Shown here: in pieces, positions 3,421 to 33,763 of the stretch
Position numbering within the stretch: position 1 is the first letter of the stretch
How the letters are laid out: every line of letters begins with the position of its first letter
DNA from: Arenicola marina
Taxonomy: Eukaryota > Annelida > Polychaeta > Arenicolidae
NCBI GenBank assembly: GCA_964019135.1
Contig: OZ025257.1
Coordinates: 24,598,352-24,662,351 of the forward strand
Direction: 5' to 3'
Length of the DNA stretch: 64,000 nucleotides
Notes under the pieces: generated by a model
Database searches by the model: none
What the model was told of the DNA's origin: nothing
What the model saw: only the letters and a program-made list of their open reading frames with translations
Translations under genes and position numbers: made by a program

Positions 3421-3424
3421 ATCC

Positions 3425-4233: not shown

Positions 4234-4267
4234 TATAAAATGGTTATAACAACGCATTAGATTTAAC

Positions 4268-5410: not shown

Positions 5411-5824
5411 TAGAGGGAGGTCTCTTACTTAAAGATGACACGGTCTTCGAACAGTCATTAGAAGCACCAACGGTAGTTATCCAACTGTTTAACCGTCTAT
5501 TCGTAGATATCCGTAAATAAAAAAATGAATACATTTTTGGCTTGCTCAATAACAGCTTCATACTCACAGTCGTTGCCCACTGGGGCCAGCAGAGTTCAGA
5601 GTTGGTGCGGCGGAAAAGGCGGATCCGTCCACCTAAGACGAAAGGTCGTGAACCCCATATTAAGCATAAACATCCACTAAAACAGACATTATTTCATCTT
5701 CCATTAATATATTTAAAAAAAAACTAACCTAATCACAAAGATGAAGCGTGTGGATTTACTCAATCAGTTGCTTACCGTTAACGACGGCGGCCATGCAGAT
5801 CAGGGAGAGAAGAAACAGCTGCAT

Positions 5825-6292: not shown

Positions 6293-6338
6293 ACGAGGCA
6301 CGGATCATTAGATGACTAGCTGGGCAGGGCACTACCAT
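6293..6338. repeat. Single unit of the 46-49 bp minisatellite
   Basis: One lone unit ('gaggcacggatcattagatg' ... 'gggcagggcactaccattg') at the position where the other gene copies have expanded arrays. The same single unit is at about 33188-33233. It is probably the unexpanded state. Confidence 0.75.
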
Positions 6339-6339
6339 T

Positions 6340-6860
6340 GTTCACACGTTAACAGTCACGACAACTCCTGCTGCAGTAAATGCCATACCTGAGTGAGTGG
6401 AAGTTAGCCAATGGGAAGCTGTGGTGGAACGACCGCAGTGTGGTGGCGAGAAAAAGGCGGACCAAGTTGGTTAGTTGATAAGTTGTGAAAAACAAAGGTG
6501 ATTTGAGGGATCAACCAGTGTATTGCGAGCCTAAAAGCCTGCAAAAGAAAAGTTTGGAATAGACCGCTGGAATAGACCGATCTATACCCCGACACAAAGC
6601 CCCACCCACGCTTGAGTACTTTTTCCTTAATCGTCAGTATGAAATTGATAATCATAGCTCACTGATGACAAGTGAGAAGTACTCATCTCTGAAATTGACA
6701 TAAAAGTGACATGCTGCTTTGTTTGTAAGACTGCTTTGTCCGACATAACGCACGTGGAAAATCTATTTCAACGACATGATTGGATAAAATCAACAGTGAC
6801 GTCAGTGAATGACTGACAGCCTGGGTCGGTCTATTCTGGTCATTTTTGTGAGATGCTTAA
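6340..6860. repeat. Flanking block X, copy 2
   Basis: Diverged relative of 1111-1620, sharing 'aaatgccat', 'agttgtga', 'gacac.aagcc', 'tttttccttaatc' and 'gagaagtactcatctct'. Ends where the triplicated block begins. No gene recognised. Confidence 0.75.
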
Positions 6861-7329
6861 CTACAGTGACGTAATGTCTGTGCTTGATTTTGGCCCTTCA
6901 ACTAGTTAACCCCATAACTGCGCATGGTGTCATCAATGTTGTTAGTGGGTCGGAGTTTAATCTCGGTGTTGTAAATTGCAACAGAAAACAGCTTAGATCC
7001 AAGTGAACTTATTGGGTATGCAGGCCAGTGCTGGAGTAAGTGAGTTGTTGCATGTCTCTGTGTAGTTATGCAAACTAAAATGTTCAATGTAATGACGGAA
7101 ATGGGCAGGGACACGTCATGACCTGTTATCAGGTTATTTCGTGTTGTATGAATTTACTTACAAACTACACATAGGACCGCACTTCTTATTGGGCTAAGTT
7201 TGACCTACTCTACGATTGGGACGGGCAATGGGCGACACGTGTGCCTACGGTTAACACAATACAGTTGTTGCTGTAAGCGAGCTGATAGACCACCAGCTCA
7301 GCTCAATCGGGGTAAATAATTGATTAATG

Positions 7330-7870
7330 TTAGTTCGTGAATTCACCCAAAAAGTGGATTCTTTCTTAATTCAGAAAATCCACTTTTTGGATCACTATCT
7401 ATGTATTTTGAACCCGATATTCGTTCTACAAATCTTTCAATTAGCCTTCTTCCACTTAATCTATTGCCGTAGCCTAAGTGGATGACAGGGCCCGTATTCT
7501 GTATTCATCTTAAGTCTAAAATTTTGGCCCAAACTTACTTTTGGTCCAAATTTTATCTAACATTGCGAATGCCTATTCTGCATACAGCCATCATCTCACT
7601 TAAGAACAGTTAAAAACTCAAATTTGGGCCGTATTCATAATATCCTCGTAAGTTACGCACGAAAGTACATTTTCATCTTAGCCTCACCAGGTCGTTGTGG
7701 TGGTGCTTAAGAAATCCTCTTCAACATAATTGTAGCCCTTTCTTAATTCAGAAAATCCACTTCTTGGGTGACTACTTATGGATTGTGAACCAGATAATCG
7801 CTCGACAAATTTTCCACTTAGCGCTAAGTCTAGTGGCGTAGCCTAAGTGGCGATTATGAATACGGCCCAA
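7330..7870. mobile_element. Nested MITE-like elements with 18-bp terminal inverted repeats
   Basis: The inner element runs from about 7625 to 7870, bounded by a perfect 18-base inverted repeat: 'ttgggccgtattcataat' on the left and 'attatgaatacggcccaa' on the right. Its right half ('ttcagaaaatccactt' ... 'gtagcctaagtgg') matches 7360-7482, which abuts 'gggcccgtattctg' at 7488, so at least two members of the family lie side by side or nested. Just outside is a perfect hairpin, 'ataacttaaag/ctttaagttat'. No coding capacity. Confidence 0.75.
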
Positions 7871-8068
7871 GATAACTTAAAGGTGACTTTAAGTTATGAT
7901 ATTTGACAAGATGGACCGCATGCATATTGGCGTCGCAGTAGCAGGCGTGATGCGAGATTTGACATTGAGAGGCGCACCAATCAGATTGAACCCGCCTGAA
8001 CCCGCTTGAAATAGGGGGGCAAAAAAGAAACATTCGTGAGAAATATATTTAGATCGCGCTCCTTTAGC

Positions 8069-8700
8069 AGGGGCGGATGTAAGAATTTGGAAACGGAGTA
8101 GGGCGAGACTTCCGCTCTCTAAAAACTTGCGACCGAGGGGGGGGAGGGGTACACCTCAGATGGTTTTAAATGGGCATTCTTCCGCCATAAGCAATAATGG
8201 TCAGTGAAAATTTCGTCTTGAACACCTATTTGCTTGAGGAGGTGAGTTAAAGCCCCCCACCCCACATTCAGGATCCGCCACTTGGTTGCACCTACAACAT
8301 GTCACTTTGCGCAGCCCGACTTATAGTTGCCAAGGGGAGGGGGGGGCGGCGTTCCAACCCCCCTAACATCCCACCTGTCGCTAGATCCGCCCCTGATTCG
8401 GCCTATGCTCTTGTGCCAGAATTTGATCGCACCGTTTGGACGGCAATATGCGCGCAGTCGGTGAGGCTGTACCCACGGGCGGATCCAAGGAGGGGGGGTG
8501 GGGGTCCCGGGGGTCCCCTTCCCTCTTTTTGAGGAAGAGTGACATTTATTAATGTATAATGTGAGGCGTCGACCCCCAACCCCCCGGTCAACCCCCCGTC
8601 AAAATATTAGAAATGGTGGAGCCCCACCCCGGTTCTAATTATTTTCAGAGCCCCACCCCCCTCCCTGCTCCATCGGTCCAATGGACGCCTCCATTTATAA
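8069..8700. mobile_element. Cluster of G-tract-rich 'ggcggatc' elements
   Basis: Repeated boundaries 'gggcggat' and 'ggatccgcc' or 'agatccgcc' enclose sequences with long G or C runs: about 8069-8285, a second ending near 8397, and a third starting near 8472. The same boundary motif recurs at 39008-39273, 40700-40925, 48047-48180 and 50203-50370. This suggests a non-autonomous element family with inverted GGCGGATC ends; no transposase is present. Confidence 0.55.
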
Positions 8701-9499
8701 ATTGCTGCTACCCGTGGTCACCTTGACATGGGCTGCTCAACGCTACCTGGCGACGTTAATAAACTCTTTCCGTTTGTCTACTTCTGTCACCGGAGGATGA
8801 CACTCAACTTCTGTCTAGTTCGGTTTCCTTTGCCTCTCCTTCTGTTATTACATCCGGACAGAATCCACTGATTGTGACAGTTGTCGTCTGCTAAAGTAGA
8901 TTATTACCTTCATTGAACAGTTCCAAAATAAAGCGTCATTATCCGGTAGCCGTGAGATGGCAGCACAACTCAAGGTCTCACTTAGTCGCGACGCCTGGCG
9001 AAGCGATGCGCTTCCGAGAATGAGTTGCGGACTTAGCCCGCTGATAAAAACTCAGCTGAGATGCGCCTTAAGTTGTTTATAGAGCAGCATTAAGTTTTAA
9101 ATCTCAGCTTAACCAGAAAATTAAAATAACGTCTAAAACTTAAGCCCAGATGCTGATGTTGAGAGGCGAGGCTCCTGTCTGGGTCCCCGTACGTTGTTTT
9201 GTCCAGTTGCTTTGTACTGGCCTTAAAGAGTTCTTCATCGATCAGGCTCGTTGTATTGTCACCCACAGCGGAATATTACTGGGTTAATTACCTTTAATTA
9301 TGAACCAAATATATGTAATTATATAAACCATAACATTGTTCTCTTGCATTCCAGAATACGCATTAAAACCAGCCAAATACCATAGATATTAGGCTGCAAC
9401 CATAAGTATTGGGCGCTACCAAAGTTCATAATGCGACCTTTCAGTCGCCTTAATGTTTTCGTGTCTCTCATGGTTCGCTTTTGACCGTGTTCGGAAGTT

Positions 9500-9570
9500 G
9501 ATCACACTGGTGATGTGGTGGCTTTACCAAGAGTCGAACCCGGCACGCGGGGGCTGCTCTGGGGCGTTTA
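9500..9570 (-). repeat. tRNA-like B-box sequence (possible SINE head)
   Basis: On the minus strand the sequence 'gccgggttcgactcttgg' matches a B-box and can form a five-pair T-arm that includes two G-U pairs. No good A-box or acceptor stem was found, so this is not a functional tRNA gene. It is copied with the block at about 12598-12668 and 36390-36460. Confidence 0.3.
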
Positions 9571-9690
9571 TGTCCCACTGCGGTGACTCCAAGGTGTCAA
9601 CATTACTCTCCTCTCCCGCTCTTTATCACGCTTATCCCTCACCCACCACCCTCCCTCACCCCCAACCCCTCTGTTGTCCCACTACCCTCC

Positions 9691-14769: not shown

Positions 14770-17700
14770 TCAACCAAGCCAACTGGAGACGGCAGTGTGT
14801 GCGATTCCGACAAGCCGAGGGAACCATTTGCCCTCAGGAACCATCACATCGGGCACCTTGTTCCCCGTTAGGAGGTCAACGAGTGCCTTGAGGACAGCCT
14901 CGGTCTCGGCCGGGGTCAGTTCAAGGTCATCCAACGCTACAGCAGTGCTGGAAAGAAGCGATAGAAGTTGTGAGCAGGCATGCATCCTTCCAAGCAGGCA
15001 GAGCAATTGCGTTCTTACAGCGAGAAGACCCCAGGGGTGAGTTCGGATATGAGAGCTGCCTAATCCGACTCCGCGGAGTGCATAACCGAACGGAGATGGT
15101 GTTCCGATAGCGGGGTCACGTGGTACATTTTGCCCACCCAGAGGAGGATCACGAGGATTTCGAGCATGGCGTCCAGGCCCAACAATACGTAATATAAATA
15201 AAGTAATATTTAGACCTGCAAACAAATGTGAATATTATAACTAGAATAAAATAATGAACAAAACACGTATCAGTTTATTTATATCCTACTGTTTACCGAT
15301 CTTCATGATTTGTGCAGCTCAGCATTTACAACATTCACGCGGACCGCGGATTTTGCGTTCGGTTTATTTTGATCCGCACATGAGCGGAAAGTATGAGTGC
15401 GTATGCTCCAAATATCTGCGCCGATTACTCCGGTCGCATATCCCAACTCAACCCAGGTCTCCCCCCTCCCCCAAACCCACACACCATGGGACGTGAAGGA
15501 CCGGAAAAAATTCCGAGACTCATCCAGGGATATGGATGCGGCGTTTCAGCCCGCCCCCAGGCAGCCCTCGTAACCATTTTATGGAGAGACGCAAATGCAA
15601 AAGACACTGGCTGGATACTAACGTCTTTAGGATCAGCTTCGCCACCTCCGCAGTCTTTCCCTCCGATACCATCTTCTCAACTGAAAGAGAAGTATTAACA
15701 GTCATAAATAACCAAGTGCCAGTGGAATACGGAAGGCAATTTAGGTTGGGGGCCCTCGGGACCCTTCGTAATTGGCCAACGACCACAGTAGAACTGTCCT
15801 TACCGAAAGCCGCCAGTCGACCGTCCATGACGACCTCTTCCACGACGTTGTTGATGGCCGCCATGTGCAACAGCTCATCGGCATCCTCTTCTGCAACAAA
15901 ACACCAGGGTCAGTGAAGGTGGCTCAAGGGTCAGTGAAGGTGGCTCAAGGGTCAGTGAAGGTGGCTCAAGGGTCAGTGAAGGTGGCTCAAGGGTCAGTGA
16001 AGGTGGCTCAAGGGTCAGTGAAGGTGGCTCAAGGGTCAGTGAAGGTGGCTCAAGGGTCAGTGAAGGTGGCTCAAGGGTCAGTGAAGGTGGCTCAAGGGTC
16101 AGTGAAGGTGGCTCAAGGGTCAGTGAAGGTGGCTCAAGGGTCAGTGAAGGTGGCTCAAGGGTCAGTGAAGGTGGCTCAAGGGTCAGTGAAGGTGGCTCAA
16201 GGGTCAGTGAAGGTGGCTCAAGGGTCAGTGAAGGTGGCTCAAGGGTCAGTGAAGGTGGCTCAAGGGTCAGTGAAGGTGGCTCAAGGGTCAGTGAAGGTGG
16301 CTCAAGGGTCAGTGAAGGTGGCTCAAGGGTCAGTGAAGGTGGCTCAAGGGTCAGTGAAGGTGGCTCAAGGGTCAGTGAAGGTGGCTCAAGGGTCAGTGAA
16401 GGTGGCTCAAGGGTCAGTGAAGGTGGCTCAAGGGTCAGTGAAGGTGGCTCAAGGGTCAGTGAAGGTGGCTCAAGGGTCAGTGAAGGTGGCTCAAGGGTCA
16501 GTGAAGGTGGCTCAAGGGTCAGTGAAGGTGGCTCAAGGGTCAGTGAAGGTGGCTCAAGGGTCAGTGAAGGTGGCTCAAGGGTCAGTGAAGGTGGCTCAAG
16601 GGTCAGTGAAGGTGGCTCAAGGGTCAGTGAAGGTGGCTCAAGGGTCAGTGAAGGTGGCTCAAGGGTCAGTGAAGGTGGCTCAAGGGTCAGTGAAGGTGGC
16701 TCAAGGGTCAGTGAAGGTGGCTCAAGGGTCAGTGAAGGTGGCTCAAGGGTCAGTGAAGGTGGCTCAAGGGTCAGTGAAGGTGGCTCAAGGGTCAGTGAAG
16801 GTGGCTCAAGGGTCAGTGAAGGTGGCTCAAGGGTCAGTGAAGGTGGCTCAAGGGTCAGTGAAGGTGGCTCAAGGGTCAGTGAAGGTGGCTCAAGGGTCAG
16901 TGAAGGTGGCTCAAGGGTCAGTGAAGGTGGCTCAAGGGTCAGTGAAGGTGGCTCAAGGGTCAGTGAAGGTGGCTCAAGGGTCAGTGAAGGTGGCTCAAGG
17001 GTCAGTGAAGGTGGCTCAAGGGTCAGTGAAGGTGGCTCAAGGGTCAGTGAAGGTGGCTCAAGGGTCAGTGAAGGTGGCTCAAGGGTCAGTGAAGGTGGCT
17101 CAAGGGTCAGTGAAGGTGGCTCAAGGGTCAGTGAAGGTGGCTCAAGGGTCAGTGAAGGTGGCTCAAGGGTCAGTGAAGGTGGCTCAAGGGTCAGTGAAGG
17201 TGGCTCAAGGGTCAGTGAAGGTGGCTCAAGGGTCAGTGAAGGTGGCTCAAGGGTCAGTGAAGGTGGCTCAAGGGTCAGTGAAGGTGGCTCAAGGGTCAGT
17301 GAAGGTGGCTCAAGGGTCAGTGAAGGTGGCTCAAGGGTCAGTGAAGGTGGCTCAAGGGTCAGTGAAGGTGGCTCAAGGGTCAGTGAAGGTGGCTCAAGGG
17401 TCAGTGAAGGTGGCTCAAGGGTCAGTGAAGGTGGCTCAAGGGTCAGTGAAGGTGGCTCAAGGGTCAGTGAAGGTGGCTCAAGGGTCAGTGAAGGTGGCTC
17501 AAGGGTCAGTGAAGGTGGCTCAAGGGTCAGTGAAGGTGGCTCAAGGGTCAGTGAAGGTGGCTCAAGGGTCAGTGAAGGTGGCTCAAGGGTCAGTGAAGGT
17601 GGCTCAAGGGTCAGTGAAGGTGGCTCAAGGGTCAGTGAAGGTGGCTCAAGGGTCAGTGAAGGTGGCTCAAGGGTCAGTGAAGGTGGCTCAAGGGTCAGTG

Positions 17701-20700
17701 AAGGTGGCTCAAGGGTCAGTGAAGGTGGCTCAAGGGTCAGTGAAGGTGGCTCAAGGGTCAGTGAAGGTGGCTCAAGGGTCAGTGAAGGTGGCTCAAGGGT
17801 CAGTGAAGGTGGCTCAAGGGTCAGTGAAGGTGGCTCAAGGGTCAGTGAAGGTGGCTCAAGGGTCAGTGAAGGTGGCTCAAGGGTCAGTAAAGGTGGCTCA
17901 AGGGTCAGTAAAGGTGGCTCAAGGGTCAGTAAAGGTGGCTCAAGGGTCAGTAAAGGTGGCTCAAGGCCCAGTAAAGGTGGCTCAAGGCCCAGTAAAGGTG
18001 GCTCAAGGCCCAGTAAAGGTGGCTCAAGGCCCAGTAAAGGTGGCTCAAGGCCCAGTAAAGGTGGCTCAAGGCCCAGTAAAGGTGGCTCAAGGGTCAGTGA
18101 AGGTGGCTCAAGGGTCAGTGAAGGTGGCTCAAGGGTCAGTGAAGGTGGCTCAAGGGTCAGTGAAGGTGGCTCAAGGGTCAGTGAAGGTGGCTCAAGGGTC
18201 AGTGAAGGTGGCTCAAGGGTCAGTGAAGGTGGCTCAAGGGTCAGTGAAGGTGGCTCAAGGGTCAGTGAAGGTGGCTCAAGGGTCAGTGAAGGTGGCTCAA
18301 GGGTCAGTGAAGGTGGCTCAAGGGTCAGTGAAGGTGGCTCAAGGGTCAGTGAAGGTGGCTCAAGGGTCAGTGAAGGTGGCTCAAGGGTCAGTGAAGGTGG
18401 CTCAAGGGTCAGTGAAGGTGGCTCAAGGGTCAGTGAAGGTGGCTCAAGGGTCAGTGAAGGTGGCTCAAGGGTCAGTGAAGGTGGCTCAAGGGTCAGTGAA
18501 GGTGGCTCAAGGGTCAGTGAAGGTGGCTCAAGGGTCAGTGAAGGTGGCTCAAGGGTCAGTGAAGGTGGCTCAAGGGTCAGTGAAGGTGGCTCAAGGGTCA
18601 GTGAAGGTGGCTCAAGGGTCAGTGAAGGTGGCTCAAGGGTCAGTGAAGGTGGCTCAAGGGTCAGTGAAGGTGGCTCAAGGGTCAGTGAAGGTGGCTCAAG
18701 GGTCAGTGAAGGTGGCTCAAGGGTCAGTGAAGGTGGCTCAAGGGTCAGTGAAGGTGGCTCAAGGGTCAGTGAAGGTGGCTCAAGGGTCAGTGAAGGTGGC
18801 TCAAGGGTCAGTGAAGGTGGCTCAAGGGTCAGTGAAGGTGGCTCAAGGGTCAGTGAAGGTGGCTCAAGGGTCAGTGAAGGTGGCTCAAGGGTCAGTGAAG
18901 GTGGCTCAAGGGTCAGTGAAGGTGGCTCAAGGGTCAGTGAAGGTGGCTCAAGGGTCAGTGAAGGTGGCTCAAGGGTCAGTGAAGGTGGCTCAAGGGTCAG
19001 TGAAGGTGGCTCAAGGGTCAGTGAAGGTGGCTCAAGGGTCAGTGAAGGTGGCTCAAGGGTCAGTGAAGGTGGCTCAAGGGTCAGTGAAGGTGGCTCAAGG
19101 GTCAGTGAAGGTGGCTCAAGGGTCAGTGAAGGTGGCTCAAGGGTCAGTGAAGGTGGCTCAAGGGTCAGTGAAGGTGGCTCAAGGGTCAGTGAAGGTGGCT
19201 CAAGGGTCAGTGAAGGTGGCTCAAGGGTCAGTGAAGGTGGCTCAAGGGTCAGTGAAGGTGGCTCAAGGGTCAGTGAAGGTGGCTCAAGGGTCAGTGAAGG
19301 TGGCTCAAGGGTCAGTGAAGGTGGCTCAAGGGTCAGTGAAGGTGGCTCAAGGGTCAGTGAAGGTGGCTCAAGGGTCAGTGAAGGTGGCTCAAGGGTCAGT
19401 GAAGGTGGCTCAAGGGTCAGTGAAGGTGGCTCAAGGGTCAGTGAAGGTGGCTCAAGGGTCAGTGAAGGTGGCTCAAGGGTCAGTGAAGGTGGCTCAAGGG
19501 TCAGTGAAGGTGGCTCAAGGGTCAGTGAAGGTGGCTCAAGGGTCAGTGAAGGTGGCTCAAGGGTCAGTGAAGGTGGCTCAAGGGTCAGTGAAGGTGGCTC
19601 AAGGGTCAGTGAAGGTGGCTCAAGGGTCAGTGAAGGTGGCTCAAGGGTCAGTGAAGGTGGCTCAAGGGTCAGTGAAGGTGGCTCAAGGGTCAGTGAAGGT
19701 GGCTCAAGGGTCAGTGAAGGTGGCTCAAGGGTCAGTGAAGGTGGCTCAAGGGTCAGTGAAGGTGGCTCAAGGGTCAGTGAAGGTGGCTCAAGGGTCAGTG
19801 AAGGTGGCTCAAGGGTCCAGTGAAGGTGGCTCAAGGCCCAGTGAAGGTGGCTCAAGGCCCAGTGAAGGTGGCTCAAGGCCCAGTGAAGGTGGCTCAAGGC
19901 CCAGTGAAGGTGGCTCAAGGCCCAGTGAAGGTGGCTCAAGGCCCAGTGAAGGTGGCTCAAGGCCCAGTGAAGGTGGCTCAAGGCCCAGTGAAGGTGGCTC
20001 AAGGCCCAGTGAAGGTGGCTCAAGGCCCAGTGAAGGTGGCTCAAGGCCCAGTGAAGGTGGCTCAAGGCCCAGTGAAGGTGGCTCAAGGCCCAGTGAAGGT
20101 GGCTCAAGGCCCAGTGAAGGTGGCTCAAGGCCCAGTGAAGGTGGCTCAAGGCCCAGTGAAGGTGGCTCAAGGCCCAGTGAAGGTGGCTCAAGGCCCAGTG
20201 AAGGTGGCTCAAGGGTCAGTGAAGGTGGCTCAAGGGTCAGTGAAGGTGGCTCAAGGGTCAGTGAAGGTGGCTCAAGGGTCAGTGAAGGTGGCTCAAGGGT
20301 CAGTGAAGGTGGCTCAAGGGTCAGTGAAGGTGGCTCAAGGGTCAGTGAAGGTGGCTCAAGGGTCAGTGAAGGTGGCTCAAGGGTCAGTGAAGGTGGCTCA
20401 AGGGTCAGTGAAGGTGGCTCAAGGGTCAGTGAAGGTGGCTCAAGGGTCAGTGAAGGTGGCTCAAGGGTCAGTGAAGGTGGCTCAAGGGTCAGTGAAGGTG
20501 GCTCAAGGGTCAGTGAAGGTGGCTCAAGGGTCAGTGAAGGTGGCTCAAGGGTCCAGTGAAGGTGGCTCAAGGCCCAGTGAAGGTGGCTCAAGGCCCAGTG
20601 AAGGTGGCTCAAGGCCCAGTGAAGGTGGCTCAAGGCCCAGTGAAGGTGGCTCAAGGCCCAGTGAAGGTGGCTCAAGGCCCAGTGAAGGTGGCTCAAGGCC

Positions 20701-23700
20701 CAGTGAAGGTGGCTCAAGGCCCAGTGAAGGTGGCTCAAGGCCCAGTGAAGGTGGCTCAAGGCCCAGTGAAGGTGGCTCAAGGCCCAGTGAAGGTGGCTCA
20801 AGGCCCAGTGAAGGTGGCTCAAGGCCCAGTGAAGGTGGCTCAAGGCCCAGTGAAGGTGGCTCAAGGCCCAGTGAAGGTGGCTCAAGGCCCAGTGAAGGTG
20901 GCTCAAGGCCCAGTGAAGGTGGCTCAAGGCCCAGTGAAGGTGGCTCAAGGCCCAGTGAAGGTGGCTCAAGGCCCAGTGAAGGTGGCTCAAGGCCCAGTGA
21001 AGGTGGCTCAAGGCCCAGTGAAGGTGGCTCAAGGCCCAGTGAAGGTGGCTCAAGGCCCAGTGAAGGTGGCTCAAGGCCCAGTGAAGGTGGCTCAAGGCCC
21101 AGTGAAGGTGGCTCAAGGCCCAGTGAAGGTGGCTCAAGGCCCAGTGAAGGTGGCTCAAGGCCCAGTGAAGGTGGCTCAAGGCCCAGTGAAGGTGGCTCAA
21201 GGCCCAGTGAAGGTGGCTCAAGGCCCAGTGAAGGTGGCTCAAGGCCCAGTGAAGGTGGCTCAAGGCCCAGTGAAGGTGGCTCAAGGCCCAGTGAAGGTGG
21301 CTCAAGGCCCAGTGAAGGTGGCTCAAGGCCCAGTGAAGGTGGCTCAAGGCCCAGTGAAGGTGGCTCAAGGCCCAGTGAAGGTGGCTCAAGGCCCCAGGTC
21401 AGGAAGGTGGCTCAAGGCCCCCAGGGTCAGTGAAGGTGGCTCAAGGCCCCCAGGGTCAGTGAAGGTGGCTCAAGGCCCCCAGGGTCAGTGAAGGTGGCTC
21501 AAGGCCCCCAGGGTCAGTGAAGGTGGCTCAAGGCCCCCAGGGTCAGTGAAGGTGGCTCAAGGCCCCCAGGGTCAGTGAAGGTGGCTCAAGGCCCCCAGGG
21601 TCAGTGAAGGTGGCTCAAGGCCCCCAGGGTCAGTGAAGGTGGCTCAAGGCCCCCAGGGTCAGTGAAGGTGGCTCAAGGCCCCCAGGGTCAGTGAAGGTGG
21701 CTCAAGGCCCCCAGGGTCAGTGAAGGTGGCTCAAGGCCCCCAGGGTCAGTGAAGGTGGCTCAAGGCCCCCAGGGTCAGTGAAGGTGGCTCAAGGCCCCCA
21801 GGGTCAGTGAAGGTGGCTCAAGGCCCCCAGGGTCAGTGAAGGTGGCTCAAGGCCCCCAGGGTCAGTGAAGGTGGCTCAAGGCCCCCAGGGTCAGTGAAGG
21901 TGGCTCAAGGCCCCCAGGGTCAGTGAAGGTGGCTCAAGGCCCCCAGGGTCAGTGAAGGTGGCTCAAGGCCCCCAGGGTCAGTGAAGGTGGCTCAAGGCCC
22001 CCAGGGTCAGTGAAGGTGGCTCAAGGCCCCCAGGGTCAGTGAAGGTGGCTCAAGGCCCCCAGGGTCAGTGAAGGTGGCTCAAGGCCCCCAGGGTCAGTGA
22101 AGGTGGCTCAAGGCCCCCAGGGTCAGTGAAGGTGGCTCAAGGCCCCCAGGGTCAGTGAAGGTGGCTCAAGGCCCCCAGGGTCAGTGAAGGTGGCTCAAGG
22201 CCCCCAGGGTCAGTGAAGGTGGCTCAAGGCCCCCAGGGTCAGTGAAGGTGGCTCAAGGCCCCCAGGGTCAGTGAAGGTGGCTCAAGGCCCCCAGGGTCAG
22301 TGAAGGTGGCTCAAGGCCCCCAGGGTCAGTGAAGGTGGCTCAAGGCCCCCAGGGTCAGTGAAGGTGGCTCAAGGGTCAGTGAAGGTGGCTCAAGGGTCAG
22401 TGAAGGTGGCTCAAGGGTCAGTGAAGGTGGCTCAAGGGTCAGTGAAGGTGGCTCAAGGGTCAGTGAAGGTGGCTCAAGGGTCAGTGAAGGTGGCTCAAGG
22501 GTCAGTGAAGGTGGCTCAAGGGTCAGTGAAGGTGGCTCAAGGCCCAGTGAAGGTGGCTCAAGGCCCAGTGAAGGTGGCTCAAGGCCCCCAGGGTCAGTGA
22601 AGGTGGCTCAAGGCCCCCAGGGTCAGTGAAGGTGGCTCAAGGCCCCCAGGGTCAGTGAAGGTGGCTCAAGGCCCCCAGGGTCAGTGAAGGTGGCTCAAGG
22701 CCCCCAGGGTCAGTGTGAAGGTGGCTCAAGGCCCCCAGGGTCAGTGAAGGTGGCTCAAGGCCCCCAGGGTCAGTGAAGGTGGCTCAAGGCCCCCAGGGTC
22801 AGTGAAGGTGGCTCAAGGCCCCCAGGGTCAGTGAAGGTGGCTCAAGGCCCCCAGGGTCAGTGAAGGTGGCTCAAGGCCCCCAGGGTCAGTGAAGGTGGCT
22901 CAAGGCCCCCAGGGTCAGTGAAGGTGGCTCAAGGCCCCCAGGGTCAGTGAAGGTGGCTCAAGGCCCCCAGGGTCAGTGAAGGTGGCTCAAGGCCCCCAGG
23001 GTCAGTGAAGGTGGCTCAAGGCCCCCAGGGTCAGTGAAGGTGGCTCAAGGCCCCCAGGGTCAGTGAAGGTGGCTCAAGGCCCCCAGGGTCAGTGAAGGTG
23101 GCTCAAGGCCCCCAGGGTCAGTGAAGGTGGCTCAAGGCCCCCAGGGTCAGTGAAGGTGGCTCAAGGCCCCCAGGGTCAGTGAAGGTGGCTCAAGGCCCCC
23201 AGGGTCAGTGAAGGTGGCTCAAGGCCCCCAGGGTCAGTGAAGGTGGCTCAAGGCCCCCAGGGTCAGTGAAGGTGGCTCAAGGCCCCCAGGGTCAGTGAAG
23301 GTGGCTCAAGGCCCCCAGGGTCAGTGAAGGTGGCTCAAGGCCCCCAGGGTCAGTGAAGGTGGCTCAAGGCCCCCAGGGTCAGTGAAGGTGGCTCAAGGCC
23401 CCCAGGGTCAGTGAAGGTGGCTCAAGGCCCCCAGGGTCAGTGAAGGTGGCTCAAGGCCCCCAGGGTCAGTGAAGGTGGCTCAAGGCCCCCAGGGTCAGTG
23501 AAGGTGGCTCAAGGCCCCCAGGGTCAGTGAAGGTGGCTCAAGGCCCCCAGGGTCAGTGAAGGTGGCTCAAGGCCCCCAGGGTCAGTGAAGGTGGCTCAAG
23601 GCCCCCAGGGTCAGTGAAGGTGGCTCAAGGCCCCCAGGGTCAGTGAAGGTGGCTCAAGGCCCCCAGGGTCAGTGAAGGTGGCTCAAGGCCCCCAGGGTCA

Positions 23701-26700
23701 GTGAAGGTGGCTCAAGGCCCCCAGGGTCAGTGAAGGTGGCTCAAGGCCCCCAGGGTCAGTGAAGGTGGCTCAAGGCCCCCAGGGTCAGTGAAGGTGGCTC
23801 AAGGCCCCCAGGGTCAGTGAAGGTGGCTCAAGGCCCCCAGGGTCAGTGAAGGTGGCTCAAGGCCCCCAGGGTCAGTGAAGGTGGCTCAAGGCCCCCAGGG
23901 TCAGTGAAGGTGGCTCAAGGCCCCCAGGGTCAGTGAAGGTGGCTCAAGGCCCCCAGGGTCAGTGAAGGTGGCTCAAGGCCCCCAGGGTCAGTGAAGGTGG
24001 CTCAAGGCCCCCAGGGTCAGTGAAGGTGGCTCAAGGCCCCCAGGGTCAGTGAAGGTGGCTCAAGGCCCCCAGGGTCAGTGAAGGTGGCTCAAGGCCCCCA
24101 GGGTCAGTGAAGGTGGCTCAAGGCCCCCAGGGTCAGTGAAGGTGGCTCAAGGCCCCCAGGGTCAGTGAAGGTGGCTCAAGGCCCCCAGGGTCAGTGAAGG
24201 TGGCTCAAGGCCCCCAGGGTCAGTGAAGGTGGCTCAAGGCCCCCAGGGTCAGTGAAGGTGGCTCAAGGCCCCCAGGGTCAGTGAAGGTGGCTCAAGGCCC
24301 CCAGGGTCAGTGAAGGTGGCTCAAGGCCCCCAGGGTCAGTGAAGGTGGCTCAAGGCCCCCAGGGTCAGTGAAGGTGGCTCAAGGCCCCCAGGGTCAGTGA
24401 AGGTGGCTCAAGGCCCCCAGGGTCAGTGAAGGTGGCTCAAGGCCCCCAGGGTCAGTGAAGGTGGCTCAAGGCCCCCAGGGTCAGTGAAGGTGGCTCAAGG
24501 CCCCCAGGGTCAGTGAAGGTGGCTCAAGGCCCCCAGGGTCAGTGAAGGTGGCTCAAGGCCCCCAGGGTCAGTGAAGGTGGCTCAAGGCCCCCAGGGTCAG
24601 TGAAGGTGGCTCAAGGCCCCCAGGGTCAGTGAAGGTGGCTCAAGGCCCCCAGGGTCAGTGAAGGTGGCTCAAGGCCCCCAGGGTCAGTGAAGGTGGCTCA
24701 AGGCCCCCAGGGTCAGTGAAGGTGGCTCAAGGCCCCCAGGGTCAGTGAAGGTGGCTCAAGGCCCCCAGGGTCAGTGAAGGTGGCTCAAGGCCCCCAGGGT
24801 CAGTGAAGGTGGCTCAAGGCCCCCAGGGTCAGTGAAGGTGGCTCAAGGCCCCCAGGGTCAGTGAAGGTGGCTCAAGGCCCCCAGGGTCAGTGAAGGTGGC
24901 TCAAGGCCCCCAGGGTCAGTGAAGGTGGCTCAAGGCCCCAAGGGTCAGTGAAGGTGGCTCAAGGCCCCAAGGGTCAGTGAAGGTGGCTCAAGGCCCCAAG
25001 GGTCAGTGAAGGTGGCTCAAGGCCCCAAGGGTCAGTGAAGGTGGCTCAAGGCCCCAAGGGTCAGTGAAGGTGGCTCAAGGCCCCAAGGGTCAGTGAAGGT
25101 GGCTCAAGGCCCCAAGGGTCAGTGAAGGAGGAACAAGGCTGGCTGTAACCAGACGCCAGCCCAAGGCTGGCCGGTCAAAGAGAAGCTGTGGTGGACGGTT
25201 TACCATCTGGTGCACTTACTGAAGAACGAGATGAAGCCAGAGACTAAATCTTCAGACGCCATGGCTTCAGTCAGTCCGATGACGACCTCAGCCACCTCAG
25301 GAAGGCCCTTCATCAACTTGCGCGTCACCATAACCTTGATGGGGGCCGGCAAGGTCAAGCTCTGCAAGGACGCTTCAAAGCCACCTTGCAAGAAGTCCAC
25401 AATGGCCCCAATTCCGGCTTCAATCTGTGGGAGGGCGGCCGACAAGTCGCAAGTGATCTGTCCTGTGGCGAATGGAGCCATGTACTTGTGGATGGAGATG
25501 GCCACCATCTGGAAGAGCTCGCCTACTGGTCTCTCCAGGAAGAGTTCCTGGCTTATTAAAGCCTGAATTTCATCAAAGAGGCCATCCATCGGGATATCTC
25601 CTGGGGAAGGACAAAACTGCATTCAGGCTTGTATTCATCGTATAAAACAGGAATGCACGACACAAATATTTGACCAGAAATAGAACTAATTTCAAAGAAT
25701 TAGGTCACCTTGGCATATTAAAGTGATGGTTACCAGATAGTTAGAAGGGGGGCGGGGGGTTCTCACCGATGGCAGATTCGAATACCATTACTTTCTCCTG
25801 TAGTGCTGCAGAGATAAAGTCCACCACCTCCTTCATGTGGGCCGCCACGTCCACCATGGACGGCTTCTTGGCCATTCCACCACCATGACCTCCCCTTCGA
25901 CGCGCAATCATCTCTTCCACGGATTCAATGGATTCCATCGACTCCCCGCTAGCCTTGCCAGGCTTCAGATGGTGCAGATGGTCGATTTCACCAATCTCCT
26001 TCCCGGCCAGCAGCATATCCTCCACCACCAGGTTCCGCACCAGATGTTCCACAAAGCCTGGAAGCATAAGGAAGGAATTGTTCATTGCAAGGGTTCCAGT
26101 GGAATAACGAATGGAATAAACTAGAATTCATGTCAATTGCTGGAGAGTGAAGCCCACTTACCGATGACGGCATGCACTGCAACCGCTTGTCCGCATTCTG
26201 CAGGCACCATCTTTTCAGTCACGGTGGCGGCAATGATTTCAAATGCTTTCCAAGTCTTTACCGGATCCACAGCCGTGATAGGCATCGTGTAGTCTACCCC
26301 GACGGCATCCAGCTTATCCGCTAATGCAACTGCCACTACACGGAACAAACAACGTACACCATCTGCAAAAGCTAGAAATGTGAATCCATTCGGCTAACGC
26401 CTCGTGCATGCTGAACAACCAAATCAACTGTGGAACGTTTTCTCTAAGTTGAAAAGGATCACGATCTTTGAACCTTCCAGATTTGGAAAACCACCAAACG
26501 AGTTAATTTACTTTCAAAACACTTGATTCAAATAGAACTCTCAAAAGACAAAAGTCACGCGTCATTCATAGTGAATATAGGGTTTGGCTTGCTCAATAAC
26601 AGCTTCATACTCACGGTCGTTGCCCACTGGGGCCAGCAGAGCGACCAGCTCAGAGTTAGTGCGGCGGAAAAGGCGGATCCGTCCACCTAAGACGAAAGGT

Positions 26701-27235: not shown

Positions 27236-28165
27236 GGCACCCGAGGCGCGGATCATTAGAAGACCGGGCCAGGGCCCTACCATTATTATCCGAGGCACGG
27301 ATCATTAGATGACCGGGGCAGGGATTATTAGATGACCGGGGCAGGGCCCTACCATTATTACCCGAAGCACGGATCATTAGATGACCGGAGCAGGGATTAT
27401 TAGATGACCGGGGCAGGGCCCTACCATTATTACCCGAAGCACGGATCATTAGATTGCAGGGCCCTACCATTATTACCCGAGGCACGGATCATTAGATTGC
27501 AGGGCCCTACCATTATTACCCGAGGCACGGATCATTAGATGACCGGGGCAGGGATTATTAGATGACCGGGCCATGGCCCTACCATTATTACCAGGGGCAC
27601 GGATCATTAGATGACCGGGGCAGGGCTCTACCATTATTACCAGGGGCACGGATCATTAGATGACCGGGGCAGGGCCCTACCATTATTACCCGAGGTACGG
27701 ATCATTAGATTGCAGGGCCCTACCATTATTACCCGAGGCACGGATCATTAGATTGCAGGGCCCTACCATTATTACCCGAGGCACGGATCATTAGATGACC
27801 GGGGCAGGGATCATTAGATGACCGGGCCATGGCCCTACCATTATTACCAGGGGCACGGATCATTAGATGACCGGGGCAGGGATCATTAGATGACCGGGGC
27901 AGGGCCCTACCATTATTACCCGAGGCACGGATCATTGGATGACCGGGGCAGGGCCCTACTATTATTACCCGAGGCACGGATCATTAGATGACCGGGGCAG
28001 GGCCTTACCATTATTACATGAGGCACGATTCATTAGATGACCGGGGCAGGGCACTACCATTATTATCCGAGGCACGGATCATTAGATGAACAGGGCAGGG
28101 CCCTACCATTATTACCCGAGGCACGGATCATTAGATGACCGGGGCGGAGCACTACCATTATTACT
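27236..28165. repeat. 46-49 bp minisatellite array upstream of the intact gene
   Basis: Same units as 1-1110 and the left end of the second large duplicate. It begins about 390 bases upstream of the start codon. It lacks the 360-base internal duplication seen at 421-1110, so the array changed length after the segmental duplication. Confidence 0.95.
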
Positions 28166-28672
28166 CACAGGTCGTAAACTATCACGACGTCTCCTGCTGT
28201 TGTAAATGCCATGCCTGAATAATACATGAGTTAAGAAATGAAACAATAGGGTGGCGTAGAATAACGACCATACTGTGTGGACGACGAAAGCCGGATCCAG
28301 TTAAGTAATTAGTGAGTTGTGAGAAACAATGCTGATTTCGGGGGAGATCGACAATAGATATATTACCCGACACTAAGCCTTGCCCATGCTTGAGTCCTTT
28401 TTCCTTACTCATGAGTATGAAATTGACGATTATCATAACTGATGGTAGGTACAAGTGAGAGGTACTCATCTCTAAAACAACAAAGTGCCATGCTGCTTTG
28501 TTTGTCCGACTTGTTTGTCTGACTTGACGTCATGATTGGATAAAGCAACAGTGACGTCAGTGGATTATTGACAGCCAGGATCGGTTTATTTAAAGTATCT
28601 TGTGAGCCTGAAACCCTTTGCCGAAGCCCATACGCCAACCCAATTCCGCTGAAATGTTTCGAATTATTGTTT
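28165..28672. repeat. Flanking block X, copy 3
   Basis: Near-identical to 1111-1620. Followed to about 30480 by the counterpart of 1621-3420, in which no gene is recognised. Confidence 0.8.
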
Positions 28673-30480
28673 ATTGTGTTTTTATCCGTATTGTCAGAAT
28701 CGGAATGTGGAAAGGTATGTAATCAATGTATGGGTGTATGCTGACAAATTATTTTTCATCAAGTGACCCATCAATCTTATTTTCCAAATAATTCACCAGT
28801 GAAAGACCTCCGCGGCTCTCGCTTGGCGCGGAAAACTGGAGAGGAGAACCGCGCGTTTTCCATAGTTTTCTGATCATGCCCACTTTTCGCGATTTAGGAT
28901 CGCAGTATATAAGAAACTAAATTACCTCAAACTTAATAGTCAGTGACAATAAATTCCGTATTTAACATTTAACGATTATTTATGTGTCATTCTGCACTCC
29001 CAAGAATTAACGAAATCCCAAGAGATGGACTTTAAATAACCCTTGTACGATGATGTATGCTAAAATGTTTTCATAAACTGCCAATAATACATTACCGAAA
29101 TGTTGGTATTTTAGGTTATATATTGCCTATCATTCGACAGTCACTCTCTGCTTCGACTCCCCTAGGGGATACAAACGCATGTGCTTTTACATTGAGACTC
29201 TCTGCTCATTGGCTTGAACTCAACCAAAAGCATTCAACCATGAGGACAATACAAGCCCTCGACAACAGATTCCTACGCACTGCATCAAAGCTCACCTGTC
29301 AATATTGTGACATCATTAGGGAATTTCTAAATACCGCCCAGATGCAAAGCTCCCAGAATTAAACCCGCCGAACCTCACTTTTGCTACTTTTGCTACGAAC
29401 GCATTTATAGTGATATCGTGGAATAAAAACTCTCATTAAAACAAATTCATATTTGTTTGTCTTCCCTAAATAAAGTAATAAATAAAACTCTGAGCTAAGC
29501 AAAATCGTGGCACGGACACTTTAAATCTCTACTGTAGTATAGGACTTCAGTTCATAAAATAATACTTATGATCTATTCTTGAAAAGGATTATTTAGCAAG
29601 AAATTATATTTGGTTTGACAACATTTCAAGAACCTTGAAATTGCCCAGGCTGACAGCAGGGGGAATTCGGGTATATATGCGAGCGAAAAGTCGGAGTATG
29701 CGGAGCTCTTGACCGAAAGAAGTTTGCAACTAACGTTGTCACTTAGGCTGAGTTAAGTTAAGTTGAGTTGATGATTATGTTACTTAACTGCAGGTGCAGA
29801 AAATATATTAATATTGAAAGAAATTAATTTGAGAATTGTAAGAAAAAGATAGGAGTTCGATTTGTCGAATTTATAATATTTGGAATTGCATTTTACCCCG
29901 CAATGTTTTGCCAAAGGCAATGGTGTAATGAGGGTTGCCGCCGCCCCTCTCTGTGTAGTGGTTCGAGCGCACTGGAACGTAGATCTATAGATCCTCGGCT
30001 CAACACCAAGACGAAGGGATATAATCTGGGGCATGTTTAATCCATGTATCGGTCATCGTCCCCGGGAGATTGTTTATCCCAGGTTAGGCTCTTGTGTGCG
30101 CAAAAAGCATACTAAAACACCAATTTGCCATCGAATCAAACAAGTGCGACCAACTAACACTGCGATACTTGTAATACATACTCAGTACTACATCGAGAAG
30201 TTTCGCTACCTTATAATTTCTCGAGTAATACAGTAAATATTTTTTAGATCAATTGTCATCTATGTGTTGTGTCGTGTTGTGTTGTGTCCACAAAAGTTCA
30301 GTCTAATTGTACTGCCAAAAATGTCGTGGTAGTTTGTAGAACACTTTGGCCAGAAATGATAACTTTGCTCTGAATACTAATTTTCCTTCGCTTGGGTTTA
30401 AAAACCATCAATTTAGAAACGATAAACGAAAGTGTAAGCAGGTGGCACGAACGAAATTGCGAAAAAGAACTGAAGCTTTC
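28673..30480. other. Intergenic sequence, counterpart of 1621-3420
   Basis: Differs from 1621-3420 by scattered substitutions and a small insertion near 29476. No pattern of coding conservation is visible between the two, and the TATA-like box is kept at about 28907. Confidence 0.5.
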
Positions 30481-30485
30481 AATCC

Positions 30486-30491
30486 TTTATT
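30486..30491 (-). terminator. Poly(A) signal of copy 3
   Basis: AATAAA on the minus strand about 20 bases after the terminal-exon stop, matching copy 1. Confidence 0.6.
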
Positions 30492-30986
30492 GCGATTATA
30501 TTGCAACAAAATCAACCAAACAAACTGAAGAGGGAAGCGCCAGTTCCGACTGCCGTCAAAACCAGAGAGATCCATTTGCCCTGAGGAACCATCACATCGG
30601 GCACCTTGTTCCCCGTCAAGAGATCAACAAATGCCTTGAGGACAGCCTCGCTCTCGGCCGGGGCCAGTTCAAGGTCAACCAACGCCACAGCAGTGCTGGA
30701 AAGAAGCGGCATACGAAACGATAGTAGTGAGCAGGCAGGCGTGATGGGACCAATGCCCCGCGTATTTCTACAAATGAGTGCCGGGGAGTCTAATAACCTA
30801 ATAACACAATGTATCCTATGTAAACAAAGTAAACAGTTCCCTCTCAGTTTGTCAAAATGCTGCACTGACGTATGAAATACGCCAGGTTCCCTACGGTGAC
30901 ACGAATACTTTTTCAAGAGGCAATGTATTGCCGGGTTGTGCGTCACATGATGTCTCGAGCAATTTACTCTCGGATATCTTCTAGAT

Positions 30987-31096
30987 GTACTAGTTAAAGA
31001 ACGAGCTAGAGTGCATTCTCTAAAATCAAGCACGAGACGCGAAAGCGTCTAGTGGTTTATTTAGGGAATGCAAGACAGCGAGTTCTTTAACGTACT
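30987..31096. mobile_element. Short inverted-repeat element, second copy
   Basis: Counterpart of 4124-4233, with the same imperfect ends and the 'gacgcgaaagcgtc' hairpin. Confidence 0.7.
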
Positions 31097-32037
31097 TATA
31101 AAATGGTTATAACAACGCATTAGATTTAACGAAAATTATTCTTCGTGTAATGGGAATAGGGTAGCAGCCTGTGAATTCCTCGATATTCGCGATATTACCA
31201 TTAAGGCCTTTTTTTCGCGCCCAGATTTAAAATCTCCCAACCTTGGAGATTTGATATTACTCTCCCTAATTTTTTAGGATTCGCGATTCAGAAGGGGTAT
31301 CCCCCGCCCCCTCTCTTTATTGCGAACTGGGAATGTTGATATTTGATAACCGCTAATCGGGAAATCGCTAATTTATATCATGTATCCGCCCTTAGTATCA
31401 CATGCAGGGAGTTCATCTTGTAACTCACTGTGAACTGTGAATAAAGATATATATTCTTCATGATCTGGGAACATGACCCCCCCTCCCCCTCCTTCGATGC
31501 CCGCAACCAGTGTCTGGGTCGCTTTGCCTCCTCTATCATAAAATAACGAAATCCACGGATTCAATGGATTCCATCGACTCCCCGCTAGCCTTGCCAGGCT
31601 TCAGATGGTGCAGATGGTCGATTTCACCAATCTCCTTCCCGGCCAGCAGCATATCCTCCACCACCAGGTTCCGCACCAGATGTTCCACAAAGCCTGGAAG
31701 CAGAAGGAATTGCCCATTGCACGGGTACCAGTGGAATAACGAATGGAATAAACTAGAATTCATGTCAGTTGCTGGAGAAAGAAGCTCACTTACCGATGAC
31801 GGCATGCACTGCAACCGCTTGTCCGCATTCTGCAGGCACCATCTTTTCAGCCACGGTGGCGGCAATGATTTCAAAGACTTTCCAAGTCTTTTTTGGATCC
31901 ACAGCAGTGATAGGCATCGTGTAGTCTACCCCGACGGCATCCAGCTTATCCGCCAATGCAACTGCCACTATAAAGACAAGTAACGTTATCTTCGCAAGCT
32001 ATCAATGGTATAGACGGAGAAAGTACGAGAATATGTT

Positions 32038-32305
32038 TAGGGGGGGGGGGGGGGGGCAAGGGGGGGGGGGGGTAGTGTTCCCAGATCACGAAGAATAAAT
32101 TTCTTTATTCCCATGTCACGATGAATAAAAAGCAAAACTCTCCGCATGCAATTAATGAAAATCGTTGATCACGGCGGTCAGCTAATACCCCAATCTCAGT
32201 TCACGAAGAATTATTTTCCTCATTACCAGTTCACGGTGAAATAAAAAGCCCAATCCCGAGGAACGCAAATACCCCTTGCCCCCCCCCCTCCCCCCCCCCC
32301 CCCTA
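32038..32305. repeat. Long G tract and opposing C tracts in intron 2 of copy 3
   Basis: G runs at 32040-32072 (one interruption 'caa') and C runs at 32279-32303 are about 210 bases apart and could pair or form G-quadruplex/i-motif structures. The tracts are longer than in copy 1 (5166-5190 and about 5398), showing rapid homopolymer change. Confidence 0.7.
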
Positions 32306-33187
32306 TTTAGAGGGAGGTCTCTTACTTAAAGATAACACGGTCTTCGAACAGTCATTAGAAGCACCAACGGTAGTTATTCAACTGTTTAACCGTCTATTCG
32401 TAGATATCCGTAAATAAAAAAATGAATAAATTTTTTGGCTTGCTCAATAACAGCTTCATACTCACAGTCGTTGCCCACTGGGGCCAGCAGAGTTCAGAGT
32501 TGGTGCGGCGGAAAAGGCGGATCCGTCCACCTAAGACGAAAGGTCGTGAACCCCATATTAAGCATAAACATCCACTAAAACAGACATTGTTTCATCTTCC
32601 ATTAATATATTTAAAAAAAACTAACCTAATCACAAAGATGAAGCGTGTGGATTTACTCAATCAGTTGCTTACCGTTAACGACGGCGGCCATGCAGATCAG
32701 GGAGAGAAGAAACAGCTGCATGATGACGTCTGGAGGTCTGAAGAGACTGGAAGAGGACGATCGACGGTCACAGGGGCTGAGTGATGACAGGTATAGACGT
32801 GGTTATAGCCCCCTATTGTGAGCTGTCTCAGAGAGGAGTGGCGTCTGGTTGAAGCTCATTGGATGAAACATGCCCAGAGGAGTGATGGGTACCGAGACGT
32901 ATGGAAAGCCACGACGTGTCAAATCTTAAAGGCCATCTTTTAGGCTGTATTTGTTTTGTGTCTCCGACTTCTCCGCCGCTCTCGGCCGGATAGAAATGCA
33001 CATTTTATTTGTACCGCAGAGTTCTCCGCATCAAAAAGAATTGTCCGGAGACCTCTCCGCGTCTCTCCGATGCAGCCATAGATCTTAACTCAATTCCCAC
33101 AGTCAAACCAGACTGTTTCAACCTGTCAGTCTATACTAAAAAATTAGCACAAAAATCCGATGGGAACTTGTGACGTCAGAGAAGGCA

Positions 33188-33233
33188 CCACGAGGCACGG
33201 ATCATTAGATGACTAGCTGGGCAGGGCACTACC
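33188..33233. repeat. Single unit of the 46-49 bp minisatellite, second duplicate
   Basis: Counterpart of 6293-6338. Confidence 0.75.
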
Positions 33234-33236
33234 ATT

Positions 33237-33757
33237 GTTCACACGTTAACAGTCACGACAACTCCTGCTGCAGTAAATGCCATACCTGCGTGAGTGGAAG
33301 TTAGCCAATGGGTAGCTGTGGTGGAACGACCGCAGTGTGGTGGCGAGAAAAAGGCGGACCAAGTTGGTTAGTTGATAAGTTGTGAAAAACAAAGGTGATG
33401 TGAGGGATCGACCAGTGTATTGCGAGCCTAAAAGCCTGCAAAAGAAAAGTTTGGAATAGACCGCTGGAATAGACCGATCTATACCCCGACACAAAGCCCC
33501 ACCCACGCTTGAGTACTTTTTCCTTAATCGTCAGTATGAAATTGATAATCATAGCTCACTGATGACAAGTGAGAAGTACTCATCTCTGAAATTGACATAA
33601 AAGTGACATGCTGCTTTGTTTGTAAGACTGGTTTGTCCGACATAACGCACGTGGAAAATCTTTTTCAACCACATGATTGGATAAAATCAACAGTGACGTC
33701 AGTGAATGACTGACAGCCTGGTTCGGTCTATTCTGGTCATTTTTGTGAGATGCTTAA
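33237..33757. repeat. Flanking block X, copy 4
   Basis: Near-identical to 6340-6860. Confidence 0.75.
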
Positions 33758-33763
33758 CTACAG

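Follow-up and report, generated by a model that had tools for sequence, protein, structure and literature searches.

A large intronic minisatellite in Arenicola marina that most likely grew from the putative branchpoint segment at the 3' end of its intron

Results

A tandem array fills intron 5 of the host gene

The stretch of DNA analysed here (the window) comprises 64,000 nt of the genome of the polychaete Arenicola marina (C10:24598352-24662351, C10 being contig OZ025257.1 of assembly GCA_964019135.1). It carries a minus-strand gene whose intron 5 (9329 nt, GTAAGT...TTGCAG) is occupied almost entirely by a tandem array, the last unit of which contains a putative branchpoint. The intron boundaries have counterparts in 20 paralogous copies. 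The array extends over positions 15906-25139 and consists of some 390 units, each 21 or 29 bp long; its edge lies 15 nt short of the last intron base. Tandem Repeats Finder divides it into 261 copies of a 21-bp unit (99% match) and 133 copies of a 29-bp unit (98% match; positions in Table 1). Such head-to-tail units, with a length between about 10 and 100 bp and high identity, are those of a minisatellite, and the description of the element as a large intronic minisatellite in a first-pass annotation is therefore borne out. Chance is no issue for the existence of the array.

In transcript sense the unit reads CCACCTTCACTGACCCTTGAG, and a longer form with 8 extra bases reads CCACCTTCACTGACCCTGGGGGCCTTGAG; the 21-bp units lie mostly on the acceptor side and the 29-bp units mostly on the donor side. 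Cutting the array at CCAC yields 393 pieces. The first-pass annotation had counted about 390 copies of the motif CTGAC, a figure that is in fact the number of units: CTGAC itself occurs 326 times in the intron and is missing from 67 of the 391 interior units, chiefly from those of the block type CACTGGGCC. The same annotation had placed the branch adenine of the last copy about 20 bases before the acceptor AG, which agrees with the 18 nt that we measured to the A of this AG; CCTGGTGTTTTGTTGCAG follows. By itself this position is weak evidence, since a rightly placed CTGAC is expected by chance in about 3% of random introns (28 positions x 1/1024).

Paralogous introns form a graded series

Searches covered the 867-Mb genome, and all relatives compared are paralogs from this one assembly. 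Its mitochondrial COX1 gene contains 5 AGA codons and 0 AGG, with AAA and ATA at positions that normally encode Lys and Met, a pattern in keeping with several groups of invertebrates. A query made up of exon 6 and 20 nt of the intron found 20 places including the window copy (W), counts of this kind being lower bounds, and intron 5 was obtained for all 20. Fifteen copies including W form cluster A (C10 24.30-24.67 Mb). In 11 of them the intron contains an array (604, 675, 955, 1366, 2543, 3107, 3127, 3561, 4909, 5426 and 9329 nt), and in four it is short (143, 178, 178 and 178 nt) with two or three old units each. The short introns end like the array introns, in CTTCACTGACCCT(G/A)GTGTTTTGTTGCAG. 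When aligned, the first old unit of the short introns pairs with the first array unit, which in W is TTGTTCCTCCTTCACTGACCC (the first CACTGACCC stands at 25124), and the last old unit with the terminal unit; thus both edges of the array exist in un-expanded form. The first-pass annotation had suggested looking for a related intron with a single CTGAC at its 3' end and no array. Such an intron is found in paralog A12 (C10:24.581 Mb), which has 143 nt and exactly one CTGAC at the 18-nt spacing. The 178-nt introns of A01, A04 and A11 have the same 3' end, with one changed base in the tail of A01. Over the whole short intron CTGAC occurs once in A12, twice in A04, twice in A11 and three times in A01, and each has one copy at the 18-nt spacing.

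The remaining relatives are more distant or decayed. Cluster B (four copies, C10 23.35-23.47 Mb) has introns of 613-727 nt with about 17-21 units at 83-87% match. Because the donor is AT for GT in two of these four copies, and exon 5 is shortened or out of frame, they look like pseudogenes, that is, decayed copies of the same design. The two altered donors (L033 and L035, at C10:23.384 and 23.474 Mb) read ATAAGT in place of GTAAGT. A single copy on C12 has a 138-nt intron, is out of frame and contains two copies of the branchpoint segment. A protein search with exon 5 gave 43 matches in all, deeper paralogs among them; the three inspected, on C20, C1 and C6, have introns of 109, 91 and 138 nt with no unit. 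Their terminal motif is TTTAAAC in C20 and C1, whose introns end TGTGCC...TTTAAAC...TTTTG(C/T)AG, and CTAAC in C6.

None of these three has CTGAC at the terminal position, and in all four cluster-B copies TTAATTGAG stands in place of the terminal CTGAC. The exact motif is thus younger than the intron, and the cluster-B copies have lost it at their 3' end. Orthologous introns with 3' ends that lack the motif had been named in the first-pass annotation as an observation that would count against an origin from the branchpoint segment. The objection holds in part: such ends occur in the paralogs C20, C1, C6 and cluster B. All 15 cluster-A copies retain the motif.

Probable growth of the array out of the 3' end of the intron

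The upstream copy of the branchpoint segment in C12 is identical to the terminal copy of A12 at 20 of 20 nt, including CTGACCCTGGTGT, and none of 2000 shuffles was as good. The spacers in two of the oldest units, C12 unit 1 and B1 unit 2, also resemble the terminal tail, and in neither case did any of 2000 shuffles do as well. When the last 45 nt of the C12 intron were compared with C1 and C20, 7 and 72 of 2000 shuffles, respectively, were as good. A tree was built from exons 5-6 with the deep paralogs as its root. In it C12 branches off next, before clusters A and B (96/96). All 11 array copies fall into a single group (96/95), and cluster B, a long branch, groups with the short copies (95/86). 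Removal of the long C6 row left the order unchanged (94/92, 99/96 for the array group, and 96/85). Taken together, the short introns with the same 3' end and the order of the rooted tree make the intron's own 3' end the most likely source of the array. This part of the first-pass annotation is well supported by the short paralogous introns, the C12 duplicate and the rooted tree.

The position of the array points in the same direction. A 200-kb stretch of the cluster holds 31 merged arrays longer than 150 bp. Eight of them lie in intron 5 and start 8-31 bp from exon 6; for the other 23, the closest exon of the family among those mapped is no nearer than 850 bp (exons of other genes were not mapped). 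Within this gene family the boundary position is therefore special to intron 5. Five arrays at C10:24.298-24.461 Mb (L009-L026), with a shortest period of 43 bp and lengths of 1.3-4.2 kb, lie about 850-880 bp from exon 3; they are a second recurrent array of the family and touch no mapped exon.

A search of the genome with the unit gave strong matches confined to this gene family on C10 and weak ones on C7 and C12 inside other arrays (again lower bounds), and the many unrelated places expected of a dispersed satellite or transposon were not seen in it. No acceptor abutting the arrays on C7 and C12 was found by eye. Exon 8, which reads GACCTTGAACTGACCCCGGCC, was considered as a source of the unit and rejected: the best match of the unit in 15.9 and 14.7 kb of window sequence around the array was equalled or beaten by 132 of 200 shuffles.

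The terminal CTGAC is the best branchpoint candidate

The spacing of 18 nt between the A of CTGAC and the A of the acceptor AG is common to all 15 cluster-A copies. A simplified scheme of our own was used to score how well motifs up to 70 nt from the acceptor pair with U2. CTGAC gave -4.0 kcal/mol, compared with -5.1 for the reference UACUAC. The other motifs gave -2.0 (CTCAC in A12, 53 nt away), +1.3 (CTCAC in A03), -0.2 (TTAAC), +0.8 (TTAAT) and +0.4 to +1.4 kcal/mol (TTCAC). The best score within reach in cluster A is thus that of the terminal CTGAC, level with the other CTGAC copies; the U2 gene of the same genome reads GTAGTA. As far as sequence can tell, the terminal CTGAC has what a branchpoint should have (a yUnAy-type motif, pairing with U2 and a proper distance to the AG), and we infer that it is the putative branchpoint in use.

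Branchpoints usually lie 18-44 nt before the AG. The second copy in W is 39 nt from the AG with one AG, a GAG, between; the third is 60 nt away with two between. GAG is also the sole AG inside the body of the W array. Judged from the general range of branchpoints and from AG scanning, the last one or two copies alone can serve the acceptor in the ordinary way. In A03 (C10:24.316 Mb) array sequence replaces most of the U-rich tract and CTGAC still stands at 18 nt, which makes this copy a telling case in the natural series of introns.

The supposed branch A varies among interior units

The 15 arrays contain 1332 interior units, of which 1316 with lengths of 18-34 nt were compared over a 16-nt core; three single-copy types shifted by indels were set aside, leaving 15 types with 1313 copies. 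The putative branch A is changed in 4 of the 15 core types (106 of 1313 interior copies) and the C after it also in 4 types (70 copies). The T and G before it are nearly constant, being changed in 0 and 1 of 15 types. Counted by types, the branch A is level with core positions 5 and 14; counted by copies, changes are more frequent at positions 5 and 6 (334 and 152 of 1313). With the three indel-shifted types included, the branch A varies in 7 of 18 types. CTGAC is missing from 113 of the 1332 interior units, in W as whole blocks. On these counts the supposed branch A is not kept by the interior copies. The view of the first-pass annotation that hundreds of candidate branchpoints are offered to the spliceosome is not supported, since the acceptor would reach only the last one or two copies and the interior A varies. 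Nor did RNA structure appear to hide the copies in the one 201-nt piece folded, which folds no better than its shuffles (z 0.21).

The bodies of all 15 arrays are devoid of CAG, TAG and AAG (HAG) in the sense strand, and the W array is also devoid of GT. Selection against cryptic splice sites was considered as the reason and rejected: 23% of shuffles of the 21-bp unit and 5% of those of the 29-bp unit are likewise free of GT and HAG, and GT is present in seven arrays (A05, A09, A13 and the four of cluster B).

Exons 5-6 are open in 15 of 15 cluster-A copies, and the exon 5 protein is 93-100% identical to that of the window gene over the 14 further copies. Between W and the four short copies there are 13-16 synonymous and 8-11 non-synonymous differences, corresponding to proportions of 0.12-0.15 (pS) and 0.022-0.031 (pN). 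The host genes that bear arrays thus appear to remain constrained. Because their exons are constrained, splicing probably copes with the array.

Copy number changes rapidly

Copies A05 and A09 are identical in exons 5-6 over 475 nt, and their introns (3127 and 4909 nt) differ by 1782 nt. By summed run lengths the donor-side part has 70 units in A05 versus 65 in A09, and the acceptor-side part 38 versus 128. In 9 of the 11 array introns the first full donor-side unit is of type C, and the unit adjoining the terminal unit is of six types among the 11. From these unit counts and from the unit types at both ends, most of the change seems to take place on the acceptor side, which is also the side of the putative branchpoint.

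Features of the window

The features of intron 5 and its flanking exons are collected in Table 1. Exons 3-7 of the host gene share one open frame with the exon boundaries that we chose. No Pfam match was obtained for three pieces of the host protein or for the joined 338-aa reading, and no convincing relative of solved structure was found (one match, E 0.95). In one frame of each strand the array is free of stops for more than 1400 codons (15772-20559 on the plus strand, 15875-20212 on the minus strand); these long frames are a consequence of the 21-bp unit and not a gene.

Table 1. Intron 5 of the host gene, its parts and its flanking exons, in window positions
Feature	Position	Strand	Remarks
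Exon 5	25220..25600	-	381 nt; open frame; GTAAGT donor next; 5' boundary picked at an AG
Intron 5	15891..25219	-	9329 nt; boundaries matched across 20 paralogous copies
Non-repetitive donor-side part of intron 5	25125..25219	-	about 95 nt; runs into first array unit TTGTTCCTCCTTCACTGACCC; by alignment
Donor-side array block, mainly 29-bp units	21373..25139	-	short 21-bp run inside at 22351-22584
Acceptor-side array block, about 260 21-bp units	15906..21391	-	contains CACTGGGCC and TACTGGGCC runs without CTGAC
Terminal unit CCACCTTCACTGACCCTGGTGTTTTGTTGCAG: putative branchpoint, U-rich tract, acceptor	15891..15922	-	from CTGAC spacing and U2 pairing score
Exon 6	15804..15890	-	87 nt; GTAAGG next; 20 genome copies

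Other repeats are present in the window. Positions 134-9690 and 27239-36583 form a tandem segmental duplication with a spacing of about 27 kb and 96-98% identity, inside which the same gene family was recognized by eye. A 5.8-kb minisatellite at 40992-46810 has a 31-bp unit, TCCCTGGTCCACTCCTTGGTCCAATCCTGGA, with copies about 80% alike, and is strongly skewed, and a 4.9-kb minisatellite at 58842-63774 has a 32-bp unit, TGAACTGTCATGCTCTCATGGCTACAACTCTC, also about 80% alike. No acceptor abutting either of these two was seen by eye in flanks that were read in part. Several tandem copies of a segment of about 1 kb, 76-95% alike, occupy 51308-57669, and an EGF-like reading was noted by eye at 55110-55499 on the minus strand.

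Discussion

We consider it roughly three in four probable that the array is a neutral, fast-turning minisatellite that was seeded by duplication of the branchpoint segment and whose terminal copy is still used. The repeat looks mostly idle and fast-changing, rather than a set of hundreds of working branchpoints. The seed would have been a small tandem duplication of the 3' end of the intron, about 30 nt long, which took in CACTGAC and the beginning of the U-rich tract but not the acceptor AG. Ancestors of the gene family would already have had two or three copies of it; in the array clade they would have expanded to about 20-390 copies, presumably by slippage and unequal exchange, and turnover is probably ongoing, mostly on the acceptor side. 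The simplest history would be a short ancestral intron, a seed of two to three copies, and expansion in cluster B and in the array clade. The terminal copy would do the ordinary work of a branchpoint and the second-last may serve at times; the remaining copies would be out of reach and not kept by selection. With the terminal copy, acceptor and donor preserved while the intron grew between them, splicing would still work, as the constrained exons suggest.

Several observations weigh against this interpretation. As to the origin, the spacers of two array units are not significantly tail-like (146 and 564 of 2000 shuffles as good), nor are those of the main cluster-B unit (234 of 2000) and of the first short cluster-A unit (822 of 2000), and that of B1 unit 1 is borderline (39 of 2000). 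A midpoint-rooted tree without the deep rows put C12 beside the array clade. Since cluster B also has 17-21 units, the array may have expanded twice, or once with the short copies shrinking later. As to the terminal branchpoint, its retention in 15 of 15 copies is not significantly above the retention of the A in interior copies ((1 - 109/1316)^15, about 0.27), and the 15 copies are close relatives. When W is compared within the array clade, pN/pS is higher, about 0.15-0.5 from 3-16 differences per pair, so that host constraint appears less sure there. Finally, the suggested acceptor-side turnover comes from one pair (A05/A09) and the unit types, and very long identical runs, such as the 151 exact unit copies in A03, could be partly mis-assembled.

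Among the other explanations, it is unlikely that the array has nothing to do with the branchpoint and arose anywhere in the intron, coming to abut the acceptor by chance or by expansion. The region is rich in minisatellites, with 31 merged arrays in 200 kb, and a different A might be the true branchpoint, such as the one in TTCAC, 4 nt upstream. The short paralogous introns, however, already end in the terminal unit, C12 has a duplicate of branchpoint plus tail, and the other arrays in the 200 kb do not abut mapped exons of the family. Somewhat less probable again is an origin like that of the amphioxus mirages, tandem duplications across intron-exon boundaries (PMC3087553), in which the duplicated segment would at first have reached across the acceptor into the first bases of the exon, and its copies would have lost the AG later. 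To the eye, the unit junction of C12, TTGTGCCACAAG, resembles TTGTTGCAGAAG. But TGTGCC is also native to the introns of C20 and C1, and no CAG is present in the bodies of 15 of 15 arrays; the four short cluster-A introns and C12 were read by eye only.

We give a similarly small chance to joint action of the CTGAC copies, as a multi-branchpoint intron or as a decoy for SF1 or the U2 small nuclear ribonucleoprotein (snRNP) that slows or tunes splicing, as proposed for the UACUAAC repeats of Gomafu, which bind SF1 and slow splicing in vitro (PMC3116199). The 326 CTGAC in one intron, with good computed pairing to U2, would suit such a role, as would the T and G that hardly vary before the branch A (0 and 1 of 15 types) and the lack of CAG, TAG and AAG in the sense units and of GT in W. 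Against this, the branch A and the next C vary in 4 of 15 types each, and 113 of 1332 interior units have no CTGAC; the units carry CACUGAC and not UACUAAC; and the lack of GT and HAG is that expected in 23% and 5% of shuffles, with GT held by A05, A09, A13 and the four cluster-B arrays. The copy number, moreover, ranges from about 20 to about 390 among array genes with closely similar exons, which argues that dosage is not kept. Least probable of all is the further conjecture that hundreds of branchpoint-like sites bind SF1 or U2 snRNP and pace splicing or transcript release, with copy number as a fast-evolving dial that sets apart tandem genes which otherwise barely differ.

If the preferred reading of an idle minisatellite with a working terminal copy holds, the locus shows how a splicing signal can give rise to a minisatellite and survive its growth. 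One genome here offers a graded natural series, from no unit in the deep paralogs through two or three in the short introns to about 20 to about 390 in the arrays, so that branchpoint choice, the reach of AG scanning and tolerance to intron growth become directly testable.

Comparison with known systems

Ordinary intronic minisatellites, or variable number tandem repeats, have a similar unit size, homogenised blocks and length variation. Unlike in these, the seed of the present array can be identified as a putative branchpoint segment, and a graded series of copy numbers exists in one genome. Among the matches listed in a search of the open-access literature on repeats, introns and branchpoints, with subscription papers mostly outside it, no array of amplified branchpoints was found; one of the works retrieved deals with dual splice sites in tandem-repeat genes and not with branchpoints (PMC10809524).

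Two systems concern the effect of intronic repeat number on splicing. In intron 5 of canine LHX3, a short intronic tandem repeat that, like the present one, changes in copy number, loss of one copy shortens the distance between donor and branch site and harms splicing, which depends on the spacing of donor, branch site and acceptor (PMC3223203). That repeat lies between donor and branch site; here growth lengthens the distance, probably without harm. In Arabidopsis NTM1 a longer allele of a GTT repeat is said to raise intron retention, perhaps because the branch point is moved away from the acceptor (PMC12177298). There too a repeat grows near the acceptor; in the present array the terminal branchpoint copy keeps its spacing. 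Both cases indicate that the number of intronic repeats can matter for splicing, and they are a warning against assuming tolerance too readily (PMC3223203, PMC12177298).

Tandem UACUAAC repeats of Gomafu/MIAT, which can bind SF1, share with this array the presence of several branchpoint-like motifs in one RNA (PMC3116199). They are few, lie in a noncoding exon and are common to chicken and mammals. The present array, in contrast, is intronic and hypervariable in number; judged by its letters, it is not a conserved tandem UACUAAC repeat, its motif being CACUGAC with a branch A that is not kept.

The nearest known kind is represented by the mirages of amphioxus. In Adh3 and globin genes of this animal, sequence at intron-exon boundaries is duplicated in tandem in the manner of a minisatellite (PMC3087553). 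Like this array, mirages are seeded at a splice boundary, unstable in number and homogenised inside but not at the edges, and they are reported to be harmless to splicing. Mirage units measure 10-160 bp and extend over the exon boundary, with 3 or 6 copies in BflGb6 (PMC3087553). In the four array introns and five short introns aligned here, the edges of the repeat fall inside the intron and no unit spans the boundary: the unit stops before the acceptor, contains no CAG, TAG or AAG, and reaches up to about 390 copies.

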